Assembly (NCBI GenBank): GCA_905234665.1
Contig: CAJOIV010000005.1
Span: 1 to 64,000, forward strand
Length of the DNA: 64,000 bases
Direction of reading: 5' to 3'
Source of the DNA: an uncultured Bacteroidales bacterium
Lineage (GTDB): Bacteria > Bacteroidota > Bacteroidia > Bacteroidales > P3
Shown piece by piece: positions 636 to 48,155 of this stretch. The first letter of the stretch is position 1, and each line of letters begins with the position of its first letter. Both the position numbers and the translations under genes were made by a program. The notes beneath the pieces were generated by a model that saw only the letters and a list, made by a program, of their open reading frames with translations, did no database searches and had not been told where the DNA came from.

Positions 636-678
636 TTCTTACTTCTTAGCTCTTAGTTCTTACTTCTTACCTTACCTC
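634..678. repeat. Heptamer tandem array (GTAAGAA/CTAAGAA on the minus strand)
   Basis: acttcttacttcttagctcttagttcttacttcttacc, 7-bp period, between the giant gene stop and the rsmI-like start. Confidence 0.85.
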
Positions 679-3600
679 AGGAGGGTGACGGTGCCGGTGG
701 CGGTGTGCCAGGCCTCGGGTGAGACGACGTAGGTGTAGCGTATGTGGTAGACATAGGCGCCTTGCTGACAGAGTTGTCCGTTGTGGCGGCCGTCCCAGCC
801 GGCGTGGATGTCGTTGGTGTGGTAGACCAGGAGACCTTCGCGGGTGTATATCCACATCTCGAATTCTCCCACCGACCGGGCGAACACCTTGAAGATCTGG
901 TTGGAGGGCTCGGTGGGTGTGAAGACGTTGGGCACGTAGATGGTGAAGTTGTGGATGGGCACGAGGAGGTAGGCAGTGTCGGTGCAGGTGGGGCTCTTCG
1001 AGACGAGCATCAGGGCCACGCTGTCGGCCTCGCTGGCCGGGGCAGAGTACTGGATGACCTTCTCGTCGCTGTAGTAGGTGCCGTTGACCCACCATTCACG
1101 CTCGGTGTAGTCGATGCTCTTGTCCTCGGCGCGGAACGAGATGTCGTTGGCCTGGACGAACGGGGGAGTGGTCTGGATGGCGGCATGCGGCTGCATGATG
1201 GGCACGAGGGTGTCGGAAGTGAAGACCGAACTGCAGGTGGGCAGGATGTCGTAGTCGACGCTGACGGAGTAGGCCGTGTTGCGGACGGGATGGACAACCA
1301 CTGTGCTCTCGTTCTCCTGTCCACGCAGGGTGAGGTCGTCGGGCTCGGCCCACCAGGAGTAGGTGTGTGCCAGGCCGAGAGTGTCCTCCACAAGGATGGT
1401 GAGGGTGTATTCGTAAGTCTCGCACGAGTGGTTCTCTTCAAGACTGAGGACAGGTCTGGGCAGTTGGATGAGGTCGAGATGGACTGTGCTGTCGCATCCT
1501 TCGGAGGTGCGGCCCCGATAGTCGTAGATGCCGGGGGTGTAGATGACGCTGTCGTGGTAGATGAAGCTGGAGCTGTCGCAGAAGTAGTTGACCGAGTCAA
1601 TCACGATGGAGTAGTTGACCGTGAGGTCGAGGGAGATGATGCTGTCGCACCATTCGTTGGAGGGTGTCGTGTCTCTGGGGAGGTCGGTGGTGGCATAGTA
1701 GACATTGCCGTCGCGCCACAGGAGCGAGTCGCAGGCGCGGTACACCTCCGTGGTTCGGGGACTGATGTAGAGAGTGAGGAGCAGCGTGTCGATGGAAGGA
1801 CATCCGTCGGCGTTGATGTAGCTGTGGGTGTCGACGGCACTGGCGGTGTAGGCCTGCGTCCACCCGCTGGGGTCGTAGAGGGAGAGCCAGGTGTATTGGT
1901 CGCAGGCGGTGTCGACGTAGGTTGTGTCGCTCTTATAGACGATGGTGACCTCGAGGGAGTCGTGGCTCGGGCAACCCCATTGGTTGGTGTAGCGGTGGTG
2001 GTAGAGGCCAGTGGTGTCGAAGAAGAAGTTGATGCTGTCGCGGTTCCAGATGTAGTAGTCGCACACCGGTCCGACGACAAACAGGGTGTCGCTGTTGGTG
2101 TGGATGGTGAGGTCGAGGGTCACGGTGCTGTCGCAGCCGTGGACGGTGAGGGTGTCGAAGGGGTAGGTGCCGGTAGTGGTGTAGAGCGAGTCGTGCCACA
2201 GGACCGAGTCGCAGACCTCGAGGGTGTCCTGCCCGTTGTGGTTGGCATAGAAGAGGGTGAGGAAGAGCGTGTCGTAGTTCTGGCAGACGTTCTCGGGAAC
2301 CATGTAGGGACCATAGACCTTGGTGCCCGAAGTGTTGTAGGCGGTGCGGTTGCGCGGCCATACGTAGATGTCGCAGTCAGTGACGTACCAGACGGAGTCG
2401 ACCGGCTGGTCGATGGTGAGCGAGAGGGTGTCATGGCTGGGGCAGCCTTCGGCGGTGAGGTAGGCGGTGTCGAACACCCCGCTGAAGGTGTAGGTGATGT
2501 CGGCCCGCTGCCAGTAGAATGTCTTGCACGACTGGCGGTAGATGTGGCTGCTGGTGTTGTGGTTCACCGTCAGGATCAGGCTATCGGTCGAGGGGCATCC
2601 CACGTCGTTGATGTAGGGGTAGACATAGGTTCCCGAAGTGCGGTAGGTAATGGCGGTGGTGGCGTTGTACTGTCGCACCAGCGAGTCGCACACCGTGGTG
2701 TCGAACCGCACGTTGCTGTTGTAACGCACGGTCAGGAACAGCGTGTCGGTCGAGGGACAGCCCGCCGCTGTGGAGTAGTCGTTCAGGTAGATGCCCGACT
2801 GGGTGAAGGTGGTGTCGTGACCATGGTTGCTCCAGGTGTAGCTGTCGCAGACATCGGCGGTGAAGGCCGAGTCGGTATTGTAGTTGACCGTCAGCTGCAG
2901 CGTGTCGGTCGAGGGGCAACCGTCGGCTGTCAGGTAGTCGTGATGGTAGCGGCCCGAACCCGTGTAGACGGTGTCCAGCCCATGGTTCACCCAATGGAAC
3001 GTGTCGCACGCAGACTCACTGTACAGCGTGTTGGTGTTGTGGTAGATGGTCAGGTACAGGGTGTCGACATTCTGGCACACGCTGTCGGCGTTCATGTAGG
3101 TGCGGTAGTAGGTGCCCGTACTGTTGTAGGCGGTGTGGTTCAGCATCCATACGTACATGTCGCACGCCGTATCGGCATAGCCTGTGTTGGTGTTGTAGTG
3201 GATGGTGAGGCTCAGGCTGTCGGTCGAGAGGCATCCTGCGGCATTGATGTAGTCGGTGGTGGTGTTGATGCTGAAGGTGTAGGTGATGCTGTCCGAAGGC
3301 CAGTAGTACTGGTCGCAGGCCTCCACCACATAGACGCTGTCGCTGTTGTGGCGGATGGTGAGGTGCAGCGTGTCGACAGAGGGGCATCCGACGGCATTGA
3401 TATAAGGGTTGGTAAAGTCGCCGTGGGTGGTGTAAACGAGCACGCTGTCGTGGTTTCTCCAGACAAAGGTGTCGCACGAGCTTTCCACGTAGGCGGTGTT
3501 GCTGTTATACCGCAGGGTCAGTCGCAGCGTGTCGACCGAGGGGCATCCTTCGGCGGTGTTGTAGCCGTTGTAGTACACCCCGCCCTGAGTGTATCTGTTC

Positions 3601-6600
3601 ACCGTGCCGTGGTTGTGCCAAGTGTAGCTGTCGCAGGAGTCAACGTCGAAGGCGGTGTTTGTGTTGTGGTTGACGGTGAGGTACAGCGTGTCGGCGCTCG
3701 GGCAGCCGTCAGCGGTCAGGTAGCCGTTGATGTAGGTGCCCGTCGAGTCGAAGCCCATCGTGTTGCCGTGGTTGTACCATGTGTAGTTGTCGCAGGCCGT
3801 CATTGTGTAGGCCGTATTGGTATTGTGGTTCACCGTCAGGTGCAGCGTGTCGGCCGAGGGGCAGCCCGCAGTGTTGAGATAAGTGTGGTACCAGTCGCCG
3901 GAGGTGAAATAGTCCTGGTGATGGTCGTGGCAGTCCCAATGGAAGCTGTCGCACGCCGTCTCGGTGAAGGCCAGATGGCTGCTGTAGCGGATGGTGAGGT
4001 AGAGGGTGTCCACGCTGGGGCAGCCCGCCGCCGTGTTGTACTCATGCAGGACGGTGCAGGAGGCTGTGAGTGTGGTGTCCCAGCCGTGGTTGTGCCAAGT
4101 GTAGCTGTCGCAGGAGTCCACGGTGAAGGATGTGCTCGTATTGTAGTTCACGGACAGGTGCAGGGTGTCGGCCGAGGGGCAGTTGTACTCGTTGGTGTAG
4201 TTGTGGAAATAGGTTCCTGAGGAGTCCAGGTCCATTTGGATGTCGTGGCAGCGCCAGGTGAAGGTGTCGCACACCGTCTCGTTGAACACGAGGTGCGAGC
4301 TGGGGTTCACTGTCAGGTAGAGGGTGTCCACGCTGGGGCAGCCCACGGCATTGCTGTAGGAGTAATAGTCCGTCAGTGAACGGTTGTAGAGGTAGTTGTT
4401 GCGCGGCCACAGGTACTGGTCGCACGCTGTCACCGTGTAGGGGGTGTTGCTGTTGTAGCGCACCGTCAGGTTCAGCGTCACGAGGCTGTCGCACCCTGCC
4501 ATGTTGTTGATGGTGGCCTGGGCTGTGTGGTTGTCGGCGGTGTAGAGGTTGCCGTCCAGCCACCGCAGGCTGTCGCACACATTCTGCTGGTCCACACCCA
4601 TGGTGCTGTAGCGCACGGTGAGGTTGAGGGTGACGATGCTGTCGCAGCCGTCGGTGTTGACATCCTCCCACCGTGCCGAGTTGGTGTTGGCGTAGTAGGT
4701 GGTTCCATGCCACAGCAGGCTGTCGCACACGTTCTGGGTGTCTGTGATATGGTCGCTGTGGTACACCGTCAGGTTGAGTGTCAGCAGTGAATCGCACATC
4801 TCGCTGTTGGTCAGGTGCACGGTGTCGCGGTTGTTCGATGCGTAGTAGGTCATGCTGTTCTTGGCCCACAAGAAGCTGTCGCACGAGCTCTGCAGGTCGA
4901 TGCCCGTCGAGCTGTGACGTATCGTCAGGTGCAGGTGTGACGTGCTGTCGCAGTGACCCACCACCGTGTAGAGGTGCTGGACAGGCGTCGTGGTGCTTGC
5001 CGTGTAGGTCACACCGTCAGTCCAGGTGTAGGTGTCGCAAGTGTCGTGCACGTCGTTGTACACGCTGGTGTAGTCAATGGTCAGGTGCAACGTGATGGTC
5101 GAGTCGCATCCCACGGCGTTGGTGATGACCTCGGGGTAGACCGTCGAGTTGGTGTATGTGTTGCCGCGGAAGGTGTAACTATCGCAGGCGATGACGTTGG
5201 TGTCGAGCGAGGTGCTGCGACGGATGGTCAGATTCAGATGTGCTACCGAGTCGCACCCCACCGTGTTGCCGCCCGGCACCTGCCAGGTGGGTGTCGTGGT
5301 GCTGGTGCTGTAGGTGTTGCCGTCACCCAAGGTCCAGGTGAAACGGTCGCAATAGTCGGCGGTATCCGTCCGCGACGTGCTGTAACGGATGGTCAGGTTC
5401 AGCGTTGCCGTGCTGTCGCACCCTGCAGCATTCAGGGTATGGTATGTCGGCGTCGAGGTCGAGGCAGTGTGGGTTGTCCCGTGCCACGTGTAGCTGTCGC
5501 ATTCGTTATGAACATCCACCGCCGTCGTGCTGTAGCGCACCGTCAGGTGCAGCCGAGCTGTCGAGTCGCACCCCACGGCGTTCACGGTGTCGAACTGAGG
5601 CGTCGAGGTCGAGGCTGTGTAGGTTGTTCCATGCCATGTGTAGGTGTCGCACACATTGGGAGTCAGCGTGCTGTCTGTGCTCCGGCGCACCGTCAGGTGC
5701 AGCGTCAGGTTAGAGTCGCATCCCACGGCGTTGGCATTATTCAGCGTGTGGCTGTATCTGTTGCTCGACGTGTAATACAGTCCTGTGGCGTCCCATAGGA
5801 AGCTGTCGCACACATTCTCAGTCCTCGAACTACTCGTACTGTAGCGCACCGTCAGTGTCAGGTTCTCTGTCGAGTCGCATCCCACGGAGTTGCCCCCTCT
5901 ATGGGTGTAGCTGTCAGTTCCCGTAGCGGTGTACGTCCTTCCGTGCCAAGTGTAGCTGTCGCAGACATCGGCCGTGTGGCTCGATGAGGTGCTGTAGTTC
6001 ACGGTCAGGTTCAGTGTCACCACCGAGTCGCAGCCATAGGAGGTCTGCAAGGTGTCGCGGACGCCGAAGGCGGTGCTGGTGTAGGTTTGGCCGTTGACGT
6101 TCCAGGTGTAGCTGTCGCATGCTGTGCGGTTCAGCACTGTGTTCTCGTCGCTGTGGTGGATGGTGAGACTCAGCACCACCGTGCTGTCGCAGTCCCATTG
6201 GTCGGTGAAGGTGTGGAACTTGGTGCCGCTGAGGTAATACATGGTTCCGGCCCAGTAGAAGCTGTCGCATGCCACCTGTGAGGGATAGTAGGTTCCAGGC
6301 TGGTGGATGGTCAGGTGCAGCGTCGTGATGGAGTCGCACCCTGCCACACTTTGCCGTATGCAGGTGTCTGTCGTGTTGTTTGTGTAGTAGATTCTCCCGT
6401 TCCATGTGCATCGTTGGCAGCTGTCCACGTAGTCCGTCACCCGTATCGTGGCGTCCATGGTCAGCGACAGGTGTTCCACGCTGTCGCATCCCATGGCATT
6501 CACCGTGTGCCAGTCGACGGTGGTGTCGGTCGAGTAGGAGACCCCGTGCCAGACATAGTGGTCGCATCCGTGGACCGTCATAGTGCTCTCGCTGCTGTGG

Positions 6601-9600
6601 CGCACCGTCAGGTGCAGCGTCAGGTTCGAGTCGCACCCTGCGGCGTTGGTGAGGAGCGCGGTCGGGTTGGCACTGGCGGTATAGAGGGCTCCCGTGGCAT
6701 CCCAACGGAAGGAGTCGCACACATCCTCGATGCGGACGCTGGAGGTGCTGCGGCGGATGGTGAGGTTGAGTTCCTCTGTCGAGTCGCATCCTGCGGCGTT
6801 GGGGATGGGGTATGTGTAGTGGAAACGGCCGCCGTCGGTGTAGGGGGTGCCATGCCAGGTGTAGCTGTCGCACACATTCTCTGTCAGGTTGTTCGTGGTG
6901 CTGTAGCGCACTGTCAGGTGCAGCGTCACGGACGAGTCGCACCCGTGTGTCGTTTGTGTATGGTAGGGATAATCGCCAGAGGCGTTATAGGGAGTGCCAT
7001 TCCACACCAGACTGTCGCACACGTTGCGAGTGTCGCTTCCCGTCAGGTCACTGTGGTACACCGTCAGATGTAGCGTGATGGTCGAGTCGCAGCCTTCCAC
7101 AGTCCGCTGTACAGCTGTCTGGGTCGTGCTGCTCGTGAAGGGCCCGTATGTGTGCATCCCTGAACCGTCGGCGTCGGTTGTTGTCCAGGTGTATGTATCG
7201 CAAGCCTGTTGGACGTCTGTCGTGTTGAACGAGTAGTGAATCGTCAGCGGGAGTGTCACAATACTGTCGCACGCAGAGCCGTTGGTCAGTGTGTCGCGGT
7301 AGATTCCGCTCACCGTGTATGTCATTCCGTCTGTAGGCCACAGGTAGCTGTCGCACCGTGTCACCGCAGGCAGTGTCGTCCGGCTGCTCTTGCGCACGGT
7401 CAGATCCAGCCGCACTGTCGAGTCGCACCCTGCTGCATTGTTGCCTGCATCGTATAGGGCGGTGTGGTTGTCCGAAGTGTATGTCTGCCCGTTTATCCAG
7501 GTGTATCGGTCGCAGACGCTGTGGACATCGACAGCCACTGTGCTGTGGCGCACGACGAGGTTGAGCGTTGTCGTCGAGTCGCAGCCCCGGGCGTTGGTGG
7601 TGTGGTAGGTGGCCGTGTTGTTGGTGGCGGTATAGAGGGTGCCGTGCCAGCGCATGCTGTCACACACGTTGTAGGAGTCTGTCGCAGTGGTGCTGTAGTT
7701 CACCGTCAGACGGAGGGTGACCACCGAGTCGCACCCTGCGGCGTTGGTCTCCGTGAAGGTGGGCGTGTTGGTCGAAGCGGTGTAGAGGGTGCCATGCCAG
7801 CGGAGGCTGTCGCAGACGCGCTGCACATCGGTGCCCACGTTGCTGCGGCGGATGGTGAGGTCGAGCGTGCAGGTCGAGTCGCAGCCGTGCACCGTGGTGG
7901 TGTGGTAGGGGTAGTGGCCCGAGGTGGTGTAGCGTGTGCCGTTCCAGGTGAAGCTGTCGCATTCGTTGGCGGTCGCCGTACCGCTGTGGTCTGCATGCCA
8001 TATCGTCAAGTGCAGCGTTGTCGTGGAGTCGCATCCCGCGGCATTCAGGCAGTGGTAGGTCGGCGTTGTCGTGGAAGCGTTGTATGTGCCTCCGTGCCAT
8101 GTGTAGCTCTCGCAGGCATCCACATTCTCGATAGCGCTGTTGCTGTGGTTGATGATGAGGTTCAGGGTCACCAGCGAGTCGCATCCGTGCACAGTGCTCA
8201 GGTGATACTGTGCACTGTTGTTCGAGGCGGTGTATGTCACACCGTCAATCCAACGGTAACTGTCACAGGCAGTATGGGGGTCTGTCGCCGTCTGGTCGTG
8301 GTGGATGGTGAGGACGAGAACGTCCAGCGAGTCGCACCCGAAACGGTTGACGAGGGTGTCGGTGTCGATGGTCGAGGAGGTGTAGGTCTTGCCGTGCCAG
8401 GTGTAGCTGTTGCAGGTCTCCACCCTCGTCGTGTCGGTGTTGTAGCTGATTATCGAGAGGTGCAGCCGCATCGTGCTGTCGCATCCCACGGCATTTGTCG
8501 TGTGCTCTTCCAGGTCGCGTGTCCCCAGACTCGTGTACGTCACGCCATTCACGGGCCACAGGTAAGAATAGCATGCAATGACCGTGTCTCTCCGCTCTGT
8601 GCTGTAGTTCACGGTCAGGTTCAGCGTTACCGTCGAGTCGCACTGGTCGCTGTTCGTAAACACCACCGTCGGCGTAGTCGTCGAGGCTGTGTAATTGTGT
8701 CCGTCAATCCACGTGTAGCTGTCGCAGGCTGTCTGCACATCGGTGCCGCTGTTCGAATAACGCACGTCCAGATGCAGCGTGTCTTCCGAGGAGCATCCGG
8801 CTGCATTCGTGTAAGGGTGGGTGTACAAGCCCGAGACCGTGTAGGTCTGGCTCCATCCGTTGTTGCTCCATTGGTAGCTGTCGCATGCCCGTTGGTTATA
8901 GGCATTGTGTGTGCTGTTGCGCACCGTCAGGCTCAGGGTCATCAACGAGTCGCACCCCACCGTGTTCGGAATGGTGTCACGATACGTCCCTGTCGAAGTA
9001 TAGAGACCGCCCATCCAGCGCATGCTGTCGCACACATTCTCGCTGAAAAGCGCGCTCGTGCTGTGGCGCACCGTGAGGTCGAGGGTCACGAGTGAGTCGC
9101 AGTTGTGCACCGTCCTGAAATGGTGGTCGGCCACTGTGCTGGAGGTGTAGGTGTGCCCTGCCCATGTATAGCGGTCGCAAACGTTCTGTGTGTCTGTCAA
9201 GGTATCGCCGTACCACACGGTGAGGTTCAGCACGATTGTGGAATCACAACCGTCGACGTTGAGCGTGTGGACGGTGTCGGACGTGGAAGATGTATACACA
9301 CGCGGCACAGGATCGATATTCAGTACCCAAGGTATGGGCCAAGAAAACGTGTTGCAGTTTTCGAGGGTGTACACCTTCTCTGTACTGTGGCCACGGACGG
9401 TAAGGCTGAGGAAGTAGACGGAATCGCATCCGTCGACACTGTAGATGTTCTCGTTCTGGACCATCGAGTAGTTGCCCGCATAGGATTGTGTGTACCAGCG
9501 GCCACGGAACTCGATAGAGTCACATTCTGGCAGCGGCGTATAGGTGGCGTAGCCAAGGCGCTTCACCGTGAGGTGCAACGACACCAGACTGTCGCGGGTG

Positions 9601-9875
9601 AAGTTGTCGTTGTAGCAAAGGATGGGAGTCTTCACCACACTGGCACTCTCACGGTGGCCATTCCAAGTATAGTACTCGCATGCACGGACATACATGTCGT
9701 AGACTCTGTGCGGCTGTCCTGCAATGACAGAGTCCCTCGAATAGACCATCGAGTCTATCACCGAGGTGCCAAGACTGCCGTCGCCAATATGCGCAGACTG
9801 GGCAGTGACAGCCTCAAACGAAAAGAATAATGCCGCAAAAAGCATTATCTGCCTATATGTTTTCATGACTTTCAT
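672..9875 (-). CDS. Giant (3067 aa) tandem-repeat surface protein with C-terminal gliding-motility/T9SS type-B sorting domain
   Basis: Signal peptide MKTYRQIMLFAALFFSFEAVTAQ; about 53 CDSYTW...GCDSTVTLNLTV repeats; C-terminus IYVPNVFTPTEPSNQIFKVF...WDGRHNGQLCQQGAYVYHIRYTY...TGTVTLLR. Confidence 0.95.
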   Translation of the reverse strand: MKVMKTYRQIMLFAALFFSFEAVTAQSAHIGDGSLGTSVIDSMVYSRDSVIAGQPHRVYDMYVRACEYYTWNGHRESASVVKTPILCYNDNFTRDSLVSLHLTVKRLGYATYTPLPECDSIEFRGRWYTQSYAGNYSMVQNENIYSVDGCDSVYFLSLTVRGHSTEKVYTLENCNTFSWPIPWVLNIDPVPRVYTSSTSDTVHTLNVDGCDSTIVLNLTVWYGDTLTDTQNVCDRYTWAGHTYTSSTVADHHFRTVHNCDSLVTLDLTVRHSTSALFSENVCDSMRWMGGLYTSTGTYRDTIPNTVGCDSLMTLSLTVRNSTHNAYNQRACDSYQWSNNGWSQTYTVSGLYTHPYTNAAGCSSEDTLHLDVRYSNSGTDVQTACDSYTWIDGHNYTASTTTPTVVFTNSDQCDSTVTLNLTVNYSTERRDTVIACYSYLWPVNGVTYTSLGTRDLEEHTTNAVGCDSTMRLHLSIISYNTDTTRVETCNSYTWHGKTYTSSTIDTDTLVNRFGCDSLDVLVLTIHHDQTATDPHTACDSYRWIDGVTYTASNNSAQYHLSTVHGCDSLVTLNLIINHSNSAIENVDACESYTWHGGTYNASTTTPTYHCLNAAGCDSTTTLHLTIWHADHSGTATANECDSFTWNGTRYTTSGHYPYHTTTVHGCDSTCTLDLTIRRSNVGTDVQRVCDSLRWHGTLYTASTNTPTFTETNAAGCDSVVTLRLTVNYSTTATDSYNVCDSMRWHGTLYTATNNTATYHTTNARGCDSTTTLNLVVRHSTVAVDVHSVCDRYTWINGQTYTSDNHTALYDAGNNAAGCDSTVRLDLTVRKSSRTTLPAVTRCDSYLWPTDGMTYTVSGIYRDTLTNGSACDSIVTLPLTIHYSFNTTDVQQACDTYTWTTTDADGSGMHTYGPFTSSTTQTAVQRTVEGCDSTITLHLTVYHSDLTGSDTRNVCDSLVWNGTPYNASGDYPYHTQTTHGCDSSVTLHLTVRYSTTNNLTENVCDSYTWHGTPYTDGGRFHYTYPIPNAAGCDSTEELNLTIRRSTSSVRIEDVCDSFRWDATGALYTASANPTALLTNAAGCDSNLTLHLTVRHSSESTMTVHGCDHYVWHGVSYSTDTTVDWHTVNAMGCDSVEHLSLTMDATIRVTDYVDSCQRCTWNGRIYYTNNTTDTCIRQSVAGCDSITTLHLTIHQPGTYYPSQVACDSFYWAGTMYYLSGTKFHTFTDQWDCDSTVVLSLTIHHSDENTVLNRTACDSYTWNVNGQTYTSTAFGVRDTLQTSYGCDSVVTLNLTVNYSTSSSHTADVCDSYTWHGRTYTATGTDSYTHRGGNSVGCDSTENLTLTVRYSTSSSRTENVCDSFLWDATGLYYTSSNRYSHTLNNANAVGCDSNLTLHLTVRRSTDSTLTPNVCDTYTWHGTTYTASTSTPQFDTVNAVGCDSTARLHLTVRYSTTAVDVHNECDSYTWHGTTHTASTSTPTYHTLNAAGCDSTATLNLTIRYSTSRTDTADYCDRFTWTLGDGNTYSTSTTTPTWQVPGGNTVGCDSVAHLNLTIRRSTSLDTNVIACDSYTFRGNTYTNSTVYPEVITNAVGCDSTITLHLTIDYTSVYNDVHDTCDTYTWTDGVTYTASTTTPVQHLYTVVGHCDSTSHLHLTIRHSSTGIDLQSSCDSFLWAKNSMTYYASNNRDTVHLTNSEMCDSLLTLNLTVYHSDHITDTQNVCDSLLWHGTTYYANTNSARWEDVNTDGCDSIVTLNLTVRYSTMGVDQQNVCDSLRWLDGNLYTADNHTAQATINNMAGCDSLVTLNLTVRYNSNTPYTVTACDQYLWPRNNYLYNRSLTDYYSYSNAVGCPSVDTLYLTVNPSSHLVFNETVCDTFTWRCHDIQMDLDSSGTYFHNYTNEYNCPSADTLHLSVNYNTSTSFTVDSCDSYTWHNHGWDTTLTASCTVLHEYNTAAGCPSVDTLYLTIRYSSHLAFTETACDSFHWDCHDHHQDYFTSGDWYHTYLNTAGCPSADTLHLTVNHNTNTAYTMTACDNYTWYNHGNTMGFDSTGTYINGYLTADGCPSADTLYLTVNHNTNTAFDVDSCDSYTWHNHGTVNRYTQGGVYYNGYNTAEGCPSVDTLRLTLRYNSNTAYVESSCDTFVWRNHDSVLVYTTHGDFTNPYINAVGCPSVDTLHLTIRHNSDSVYVVEACDQYYWPSDSITYTFSINTTTDYINAAGCLSTDSLSLTIHYNTNTGYADTACDMYVWMLNHTAYNSTGTYYRTYMNADSVCQNVDTLYLTIYHNTNTLYSESACDTFHWVNHGLDTVYTGSGRYHHDYLTADGCPSTDTLQLTVNYNTDSAFTADVCDSYTWSNHGHDTTFTQSGIYLNDYSTAAGCPSTDTLFLTVRYNSNVRFDTTVCDSLVRQYNATTAITYRTSGTYVYPYINDVGCPSTDSLILTVNHNTSSHIYRQSCKTFYWQRADITYTFSGVFDTAYLTAEGCPSHDTLSLTIDQPVDSVWYVTDCDIYVWPRNRTAYNTSGTKVYGPYMVPENVCQNYDTLFLTLFYANHNGQDTLEVCDSVLWHDSLYTTTGTYPFDTLTVHGCDSTVTLDLTIHTNSDTLFVVGPVCDYYIWNRDSINFFFDTTGLYHHRYTNQWGCPSHDSLEVTIVYKSDTTYVDTACDQYTWLSLYDPSGWTQAYTASAVDTHSYINADGCPSIDTLLLTLYISPRTTEVYRACDSLLWRDGNVYYATTDLPRDTTPSNEWCDSIISLDLTVNYSIVIDSVNYFCDSSSFIYHDSVIYTPGIYDYRGRTSEGCDSTVHLDLIQLPRPVLSLEENHSCETYEYTLTILVEDTLGLAHTYSWWAEPDDLTLRGQENESTVVVHPVRNTAYSVSVDYDILPTCSSVFTSDTLVPIMQPHAAIQTTPPFVQANDISFRAEDKSIDYTEREWWVNGTYYSDEKVIQYSAPASEADSVALMLVSKSPTCTDTAYLLVPIHNFTIYVPNVFTPTEPSNQIFKVFARSVGEFEMWIYTREGLLVYHTNDIHAGWDGRHNGQLCQQGAYVYHIRYTYVVSPEAWHTATGTVTLLR
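1440..9690 (-). repeat. Coding tandem repeats, about 53 units of roughly 50 aa (about 150 bp), each with two conserved Cys
   Basis: Manual count of CDxYxW motifs from ACEYYTW to FCDSSSF, each followed by GCDS/GCPS + xxLxLTV. Confidence 0.92.
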
Positions 9876-46184: not shown

Positions 46185-46580
46185 AGGGAACGGCAACGTC
46201 ATAAGCCGGGTTCTGTCCTGCCTTTGCAGGCAGTCTCTATCATCAATCTACTGCCGCCGTCGCCGGCGGCCTCTATCGACCTACCCCCCGACAACGGGCG
46301 GGCCCGCCCTTAACTGTCGGTATATTTGGTCTTTCAACCCATAAGGTTTACCACCAGCGGGCATCGCTGCCCGCCGTCGTGAGCTCTTACCTCGCGCTTG
46401 CACCCTTACCGGAGGCACGCCCCCGGCGGTCTGTCTTTCTGTGGCACTCGCTGTCTGCAGGGCCCTTGCCTCCCTGCAGCCTTCCTGTTAGGAAGTATGG
46501 CGGCCCGTGTTGCCCGGACTTTCCTCCCGCCACCGTCCGTGAAGACGGCGGCCGGCGATAGAGTCGGTTGCCGTTTCCTA
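46185..46580 (-). ncRNA. rnpB: RNase P RNA (class A)
   Basis: 3' hallmark ACAGAACCCGGCTTAT (minus); P1 arms gggaacggcaac / gttgccgtttcc close the 396-nt molecule. Confidence 0.95.
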
Positions 46581-46611: not shown

Positions 46612-46690
46612 CAAAAAAAAACGGACATAGCAACAAATTATTTTTTTTCATGCCGACACAACATTTCGCCCCTTTTCACGTCTTATAGTC

Positions 46691-47242
46691 ATGAACCTTG
46701 ATTATGCACAAGTGCTGGAAGCATGCAGACACGGCGACGCCAAGGCGCAGGAGGCTCTCTACAAGGAGTTTGCGCCATGTCTGCTCGGTATGGGGATGCG
46801 ATACCTGCACTCGCGCGAAGATGCCGAGGACCTCCTGCACGATGCATTTATCAAGATTCTGACGAACATAAAGAATGTGAAAGACCCCACGGTATTGAGA
46901 GCATGGATATACCGTATCATGTACAACCGGATAATGGACTATTTCCGCGAGGAAAGGATGCTGGTCTACCTCGACGAAGAAAAACTGGAGAGGCACTCGG
47001 ACTGGAACACCGCCATGGAGGCGGCGCTGGACATGGACCGCTACAAGGAGGAGGACATTATGGAAGCCCTCAGTACCCTGCCGGTGTCGTACAGGACGGT
47101 GTTCAACATGCGGGAGGTAGAGGATATGGAGTATGAAGATATAGCCAAGGAACTGAACATCACGGAGCAGACAGCCCGCTCGCATCTCTCTTATGCCCGC
47201 CGACGTCTGCGCCAATACTTTGAAGGGAAAACGAATAAATAA
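46691..47242 (+). CDS. ECF-type RNA polymerase sigma-70 factor
   Basis: LYKEFAPCLLGMGMRYLHSREDAEDLLHDAFIKIL; C-terminal VEDMEYEDIAKELNITEQTARSHLSYARRRLRQ. Confidence 0.94.
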   Translation: MNLDYAQVLEACRHGDAKAQEALYKEFAPCLLGMGMRYLHSREDAEDLLHDAFIKILTNIKNVKDPTVLRAWIYRIMYNRIMDYFREERMLVYLDEEKLERHSDWNTAMEAALDMDRYKEEDIMEALSTLPVSYRTVFNMREVEDMEYEDIAKELNITEQTARSHLSYARRRLRQYFEGKTNK

Positions 47243-47250
47243 GATATATT

Positions 47251-48099
47251 ATGAACGAGAAACTGAAGAACTACACCATGGAGCCCGACCCTGCCGTATG
47301 GGAGGGCATTAAAGGGACTCTGGCCCGCCGCAAGGCAGTGCGCCGCGCCTCGTGGGCTGCTGCAGGTCTTGTGGCAGCGGGCGCCGTCGTCCTCCTCGCT
47401 GTCCCCCGCAATGAGGAACCCCCGATGATGGCCGAATTGTCGGCTCCATCCGTAGTGGAGTTTGTACCACAGCCTGTGGCACAAGCCCCTGTTCAGGAGG
47501 AACCGAAAGTTGCAGAATCCTGCCGGACGATAGAGGTGAAAGCCGCCAAGGTTGACGAACCCAAGAAACTGGAATCCTCGGCCAACGTCGCTGCTACGGC
47601 AAAAGAGGCTCCCGTCAGAGCAGAGGAGACTGTGGCCGCTACAGTGGTGTCACGCCCTGCCGCCAATGTGCAGAATACTGTTCCGGTGACCGATATCAAA
47701 CAGCCTGTGGAGCCCAAGGCGGAGGAGACTCTTGCCGTCAATGACCAACCCGCGGAGGTCAACCCGCCCGACAAGTCTCATGCAAACGCAGGTGTGAGCA
47801 ATATCCCCGATATGCTCTTGTGGTTCCCCAATGTCTTCGCCCCTTCGTCGGACAATGAAGCCATCAACCGCTTCCGTGCCCAGCTGAACCAAGAGGGTGC
47901 CGTCGTCAAGGATTTCCGCATGGCCATCTACAACCGTGCTGGTGCCAGGGTCTTCTTCAGCAACGACATCAACGAGGCGTGGGACGGTACGCGCGACGGC
48001 CAACCTCTTCCGCAGTCGGCCTACGTCTATGTGGTTTTCTATACCGACAGCGAGGGGCAGCAGCACCATTGCAAAGGAACGGTGACATTGGTTCGATAG
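47251..48099 (+). CDS. Anti-sigma-like single-TM protein with C-terminal T9SS type-B/gliding-motility domain
   Basis: Cytoplasmic N-terminus MNEKLKNYTMEPDPAVWEGIKGTLARRKAVRR, TM ASWAAAGLVAAGAVVLLAV, C-terminus LLWFPNVFAPSSDNEAINRF...WDGTRDGQPLPQSAYVYVVFYT...KGTVTLVR. Confidence 0.85.
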   Translation: MNEKLKNYTMEPDPAVWEGIKGTLARRKAVRRASWAAAGLVAAGAVVLLAVPRNEEPPMMAELSAPSVVEFVPQPVAQAPVQEEPKVAESCRTIEVKAAKVDEPKKLESSANVAATAKEAPVRAEETVAATVVSRPAANVQNTVPVTDIKQPVEPKAEETLAVNDQPAEVNPPDKSHANAGVSNIPDMLLWFPNVFAPSSDNEAINRFRAQLNQEGAVVKDFRMAIYNRAGARVFFSNDINEAWDGTRDGQPLPQSAYVYVVFYTDSEGQQHHCKGTVTLVR

Positions 48100-48115: not shown

Positions 48116-48155
48116 AAGAAAGCCGGAGGTTCTTGTGGGCCTCCGGCTTTCTTTT
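48116..48155. terminator. Intrinsic terminator (bidirectional)
   Basis: AAAGCCGGAGG-ttcttgtggg-CCTCCGGCTTTCTTTT. Confidence 0.85.

Follow-up and report, generated by a model that had tools for sequence, protein, structure and literature searches.

The window analysed here, a stretch of 64,000 nucleotides from a draft genome (2.67 Mb) in an uncultured genus of gut or rumen Bacteroidales, encodes an ECF sigma factor together with a predicted anti-sigma factor that ends in a T9SS sorting domain. This pair, predicted to be autoregulated and with an anti-sigma factor that would span the envelope, probably makes T9SS cargo gene transcription depend on the state of the T9SS itself. Judging from sequence, what appears to be new here is a C-terminal sorting domain (CTD) in place of the β-barrel on a Dma-like anti-sigma factor, along with an unexpected link to the expression of T9SS cargo. 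As the promoter that the pair would use on itself is also found before genes of exported proteins, the cell may adjust how much export cargo it makes to the condition of its export machine.

The sigma factor gene (46691..47242, + strand) encodes a protein of 183 aa with sigma-70 domains in Pfam and NCBIfam (Sigma70_r2 at 1.5e-13 and Sigma70_r4_2 at 1.1e-16 in the Pfam scan), and it may be ECF21-like. Following a gap of 8 bp, the second gene (47251..48099, +) encodes the predicted anti-sigma factor, a tethered T9SS CTD protein of 282 aa. Its residues 1–33 (47251..47349, +) constitute a cytoplasmic segment with an LKNY..PDP.VW..I..TL motif, predicted to bind sigma on the basis of a profile-profile match, and residues 34–52 (47350..47406, +) form a transmembrane (TM) helix in the structural model and by hydropathy, with an Arg/Lys-rich flank on its N-terminal side that indicates an N-in orientation. 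A disordered periplasmic linker rich in A, P, V, T, and E then occupies residues 53–187 (47407..47811, +; pLDDT ~50), and residues 188–282 (47812..48096, +) comprise a T9SS type-B sorting domain (CHU_C/TIGR04131) with an Ig-like fold. This arrangement had been anticipated from the letters alone, and Pfam, NCBIfam, and AlphaFold bear it out. An intrinsic terminator, GAAAGCCGGAGG...CCTCCGGCTTTC-TTTT (48118..48155, +), read in the sequence and reported in part by the scan, ends the two-gene operon, with a convergent endonuclease IV-like gene lying beyond. Upstream of the operon, in divergent orientation, is an RNase P RNA (RF00010, 228 bits; 46186-46574, −), and rnpB-like sequence occupies the same position at several other loci of the genus (e.g. 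L020, L030, and L039). Elsewhere in the genome, two other ECF sigma matches (C4:77770, L073; C18:42963, L087) are followed by short proteins consisting of a TM segment and an A/P/E-rich stretch without a recognisable C-terminal domain, and these are possible truncated relatives of the sigma/anti-sigma plan.

Identification of the anti-sigma factor's tail as a CTD relies on two profiles and a predicted structure. CHU_C (PF13585) matches residues 192–282 with 42.9 bits against a cut-off of 27, and the TIGR04131 match at the C-terminus is real but barely above the NCBIfam line (35.4 bits versus a cut-off of 35). AlphaFold predicts a single helix at residues 14–49, disorder from residue ~50 to 187 (pLDDT ~50), and a well-folded CTD at 188–282 (pLDDT 94–98), and a fold search with the protein returned solely generic Ig/PKD-like and C5a-peptidase matches. 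The Pfam scan detected neither a FecR domain, as found in FecI/FecR-type pairs, nor an RsgI domain in the protein. Likeness of the CTD to the end of the window's giant cargo (672-9875), as originally pointed out, is genuine, and the genome contains 21 CHU_C matches in all. Many T9SS-positive Bacteroidales possess a single type-B CTD protein of ~440–480 aa, conserved and mostly NRWG-retaining (L089-L112, one per genome), possibly the counterpart of PGN_1317, which in P. gingivalis is the only cargo of type B.

A type-B cargo protein is expected to have a C-terminal TIGR04131/CHU_C domain, which the anti-sigma factor possesses, and a cleavable N-terminal Sec signal peptide, in place of which a cytoplasmic part of ~34 residues and then a TM segment were found. 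The TM segments of the orthologues have a mean KD hydropathy of 2.5, and because an AxA site near the TM end is absent from 41 of 48 orthologues (present in 7), the protein looks tethered rather than cleaved, in keeping with the claim that it is no ordinary secreted cargo. The linker, 1.3% aromatic, is conserved in length among the orthologues (141.6 ± 8.5 aa, n = 48) and not in sequence. Loss of the NRWG tryptophan was considered as the signature of a "dead" CTD. The residue occurs in none of 76 anti-sigma tails versus 39 of 48 cargo tails from other lineages, but it is retained in just 7 of 30 cargo tails of the genus itself, a count from which the giant window cargo was left out. The signature is therefore real across lineages and weak within the genus, and it was dropped as proof; since most genus cargo tails also lack the tryptophan, its loss does not decide between an export-competent anti-sigma tail and a dead one.

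The layout is widely conserved. Of 36 genus genomes examined, nearly all carry a full-length orthologue of the anti-sigma factor, with 25–38% identity to the window protein in alignment. CHU_C was found in 30 of 30 aligned genus members, and an ECF sigma gene lies upstream in 40 of 40 loci checked by profile, including those of other Bacteroidales families. With such constancy, the association of CTD and sigma factor is not a chance one. An order-wide search recovered the same layout in four families. Among named genomes, a single-protein query of the contigs gave no match, and the loci were found with a sigma alignment query. The survey (sigma-profile scan) covers the 80 loci whose sigma factors most resemble the window sigma, so that its proportions are not a census, and partner classes were assigned here from HMM matches and C-termini. 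One type of partner consists of the anti-sigma segment, TM helix, linker, and CHU_C, with PKD domains in some, and occurs in rumen and gut Bacteroidales, in Crocinitomicaceae and other Flavobacteriales, and in two Chlorobiota-labelled MAGs; the conserved adjacency that was to be looked for by surveying ECF genes followed by TM-CTD proteins thus extends to these groups. The other type carries a β-barrel after the same anti-sigma segment, TM helix, and linker, and occurs in Dysgonomonas, Rikenellaceae, Tidjanibacter, and others. Pfam assigns CHU_C to 21 of 21 CTD-type proteins from outside the genus, and 20 of 24 barrel-type proteins match OMP_b-brl_2. Named strains with the CTD-type pair include Brumimicrobium oceani C305 (L224) and Crocinitomix algicola 0182 (L244). 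In the two Chlorobiota-labelled MAGs (L202 and L249), whose genomes contain SprA, the CTD-type anti-sigma factor is very short, at 217–222 aa.

The barrel-type partners found here fit the published description of Dma, in which an N-terminal anti-sigma domain, a TM helix, a disordered tether, and a C-terminal barrel are encoded next to an ECF21 sigma factor (PMC13088901). The assertion that the architecture had not been described consequently holds for a CTD on an anti-sigma factor, of which no description was found in the open-licence literature, and fails for the general plan of anti-sigma segment, TM, tether, and outer-membrane module, which is known as Dma (PMC13088901). The N-termini of CTD-type and barrel-type partners are homologous by profile-profile comparison (hhalign probability 98.2%, E = 5.7e-14), the comparison set being the barrel-type, Dma-like N-termini found here; Dma of B. 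theta itself was compared by description. On the sigma tree, CTD and barrel partners are mixed, with ~5 partner switches versus 22 when labels were shuffled, and at least two of the switches are forced by well-supported branches. Since the N-termini are homologous and the partner type switches on the sigma tree, the CTD form is read as a Dma-like chassis in which one sigma/anti-sigma core accepts an exchangeable outer-membrane module and tails appear to have been swapped several times. It was not filed as Dma because a C-terminal outer-membrane β-barrel was tested for in the window protein and was absent, with CHU_C in its place (Pfam). A Dma-like chassis that accepts different outer-membrane modules widens this new family.

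The CTD form also keeps company with the T9SS. SprA_N was present in all 16 CTD-type genomes of a first set. In a second set, made up of named genomes, SprA was present in 17 of 17 CTD-type genomes versus 5 of 16 barrel-type genomes (Fisher p = 2e-5); together, 33 of 33 CTD-type genomes possess the T9SS translocon SprA. The window's genome has a PglZ (PorX-like) gene, as do those T9SS-positive genomes that were tested for one, and therefore the pair accompanies a PorX-type system rather than replacing it. Given the conserved adjacency and architecture, the apparent tethering, and the occurrence of the CTD form so far solely in T9SS-positive genomes, an anti-sigma factor that reads the T9SS is a sound idea.

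Evidence on what the sigma factor may transcribe comes from promoters. A putative sigma-autoregulated promoter, CAACATTTCGCCCCTTTTCACGTCTTATA (46659..46687, +), precedes the sigma gene and represents a conserved motif of the genus. With a spacing of 14–17 allowed, CAACA-N16-GTC[TA] was found before the sigma gene at 18 of 29 genus loci, versus a mean of 0.5 and a maximum of 3 in shuffled sequence. The −10-like GTCT begins 11 nt before the ATG of the window sigma and 11–14 nt before it at most genus loci (L170-L191), a proximity that suggests a leaderless sigma transcript. The genome that holds the window has exactly two AACA-N14-17-CGTCTTATA sites, at the sigma operon and at the gene for a 788-aa type-B cargo protein, and a promoter match of 13/15 is located 54 nt upstream of a further CTD gene. 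As the window sigma is divergent, with a long branch in the tree, and the genus matrix gives its promoter a low score, support from its own genome amounts to one perfect site and one partial one. An exact own-genome site at C13:34068 had no gene suitably placed and was taken as chance. Other lineages have versions of their own: flavobacterial CTD-type pairs (L194-L224) show a promoter-like TGCAACC-TTT...GTCT upstream of sigma, and several barrel-type pairs (L192, L195, L215, and L233) show TGCAACGTTT...CATCTA in that position, as if promoter and sigma factor had co-evolved.

Forty-one genus genomes were scanned for a loose form of the promoter pattern, and a weight matrix built from 12 sigma-operon promoters alone was used to score the 55 non-sigma matches. 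Thirteen of these score at least 28, and the next best scores 16.7. All 13 high-scoring sites are intergenic, 21–191 nt upstream of an ORF, and all of the ORFs encode putative secreted proteins. The ten that are complete all carry T9SS CTDs (8 type B and 2 type A); the other three are cut by contig ends, and two of them share an N-terminal family with a complete CTD cargo. Below the gap in scores, only 1 of 42 sites leads into a CTD gene (versus 10/10, Fisher 7e-10). The 13 sites come from 6 of the 41 genomes under one strict pattern, most genomes having none at that stringency. A regulon that includes T9SS machinery, as originally foreseen, did not emerge, in that no site precedes sprA or other machinery genes among the matches inspected, and the sites lie before cargo genes instead. 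The shared motif suggests that the sigma factor of the pair may use these cargo promoters. The motif resembles ECF promoters generally, and another ECF sigma factor could use the cargo sites.

These elements can be assembled into a mechanism. The sigma factor would be held by the W..I segment in the cytoplasmic part of its partner, as the Dma-like homology of that segment and the gene pairing suggest, and the single TM helix would anchor the protein in the inner membrane. A disordered tether of ~135–140 aa, conserved in length, may be long enough for the CTD to reach the outer membrane. There, the CTD would act as an export signal of the cargo type, with the tether preventing export of the whole protein, and could compete with real cargo for docking on a T9SS receptor or translocon. 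Altered docking, in the simplest case an idle translocon engaging the CTD, would then change the anti-sigma factor through pulling and/or proteolysis and release the sigma factor, which may read CAACA-N16-GTCT on its own operon and on type A and B cargo genes, where the sites themselves are seen. With sites before cargo genes rather than machinery genes, homeostasis would call for release of the sigma factor when the translocon is idle, and on this logical argument such release is likelier than release by secretion stress. It is tempting, if only tentatively, to suggest a T9SS export checkpoint in which the tethered CTD serves as decoy cargo and an idle T9SS engages the anti-sigma factor, pulling or exposing it, and so frees the cargo-transcribing sigma factor; such a FlgM-like device would have arisen several times independently in Bacteroidota, as a barrel was swapped for a secretion signal. 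If true, this would be a direct sensor-to-cargo loop, relevant to how Bacteroidota fit T9SS cargo to export capacity.

Other explanations deserve weight. The pair might be a Dma-like envelope sensor whose CTD is a convenient Ig-like or outer-membrane-docking domain, responding to a ligand, LPS, or envelope integrity without reading T9SS traffic at all. The chassis is that of Dma, which controls vesiculation in B. theta (PMC13088901), PKD domains precede the CTD in some homologues, and the NRWG tryptophan is lost from the anti-sigma tails; nevertheless, this reading seems somewhat unlikely when the CTD form is seen only alongside SprA and a promoter of the cognate type stands before T9SS cargo genes. 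It is conceivable, too, that another ECF sigma factor with the same consensus serves the cargo promoters and that the pair controls only itself. Slightly varied GCAAC...GTCT/ATCT-like elements do precede several ECF sigma lineages, and the window's genome holds 19 sigma region-4-like matches. Yet the CGTCTTATA variant in that genome is common only to the window operon and the cargo gene, appearing before no other sigma operon, and the flavobacterial and barrel-type lineages have differing versions of their own, all of which makes such a division of labor unlikely.

The original prediction held that secretion stress frees the sigma factor, a saturated T9SS displacing the CTD and T9SS functions being induced. 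Both the architecture and the T9SS linkage would suit this proposal, competition for occupancy being their natural reading, but promoter sites before cargo genes, and before no machinery gene among the matches inspected, agree with it poorly. To raise cargo when the channel is already full would create a runaway loop, and on this logical argument the proposal is quite unlikely. An ordinary T9SS cargo with a hydrophobic stretch that is a long signal peptide and a sigma gene that is a chance neighbor can draw on a genuine CTD. It is highly improbable, since the sigma neighbor is present at 40 of 40 loci, which led to its rejection, and both the rarity of AxA sites near the TM and the homology of the N-terminus to barrel-type anti-sigma factors count against it as well.

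Several known systems resemble the favored reading, in which cargo transcription follows the state of the T9SS. FlgM, the anti-sigma factor of FliA (sigma28), is a soluble protein that is wholly exported by the T3SS. As there, an anti-sigma factor bears a signal of an export system and the sigma factor controls, here by prediction, that system's substrates; unlike FlgM, the window anti-sigma factor is membrane-tethered and the system is the T9SS, and no homology between the two is known. The RsgI-SigI pairs of cellulosome clostridia are Gram-positive carbohydrate sensors without a T9SS. They share with the window pair an anti-sigma factor whose outer domain is of a class also found in the secreted proteins of the regulon, but the context here is the T9SS and the window protein has no RsgI domain. 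In the PorXY-SigP system of P. gingivalis, SigP controls T9SS machinery genes, PorA is a cell-surface CTD protein upstream of PorY/PorX, and no downstream anti-sigma candidate is given for SigP (PMC7712824). There, as is proposed here, a CTD protein feeds an ECF sigma factor that controls T9SS functions; however, that system has no anti-sigma fusion, and SigP targets machinery, whereas the predicted targets here are cargo. Closest is Dma, with its adjacent cognate ECF sigma factor, a homologous segment predicted to bind sigma (judged through the barrel-type relatives), one TM helix, a long disordered tether, and a C-terminal module facing the outer membrane. It differs in that its module is a β-barrel rather than a T9SS type-B CTD, and the regulon predicted here consists of T9SS cargo and not of vesicle or PUL genes. 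By analogy, the logic of the window pair would be that of FlgM-sigma28, rebuilt on a Dma-like scaffold.
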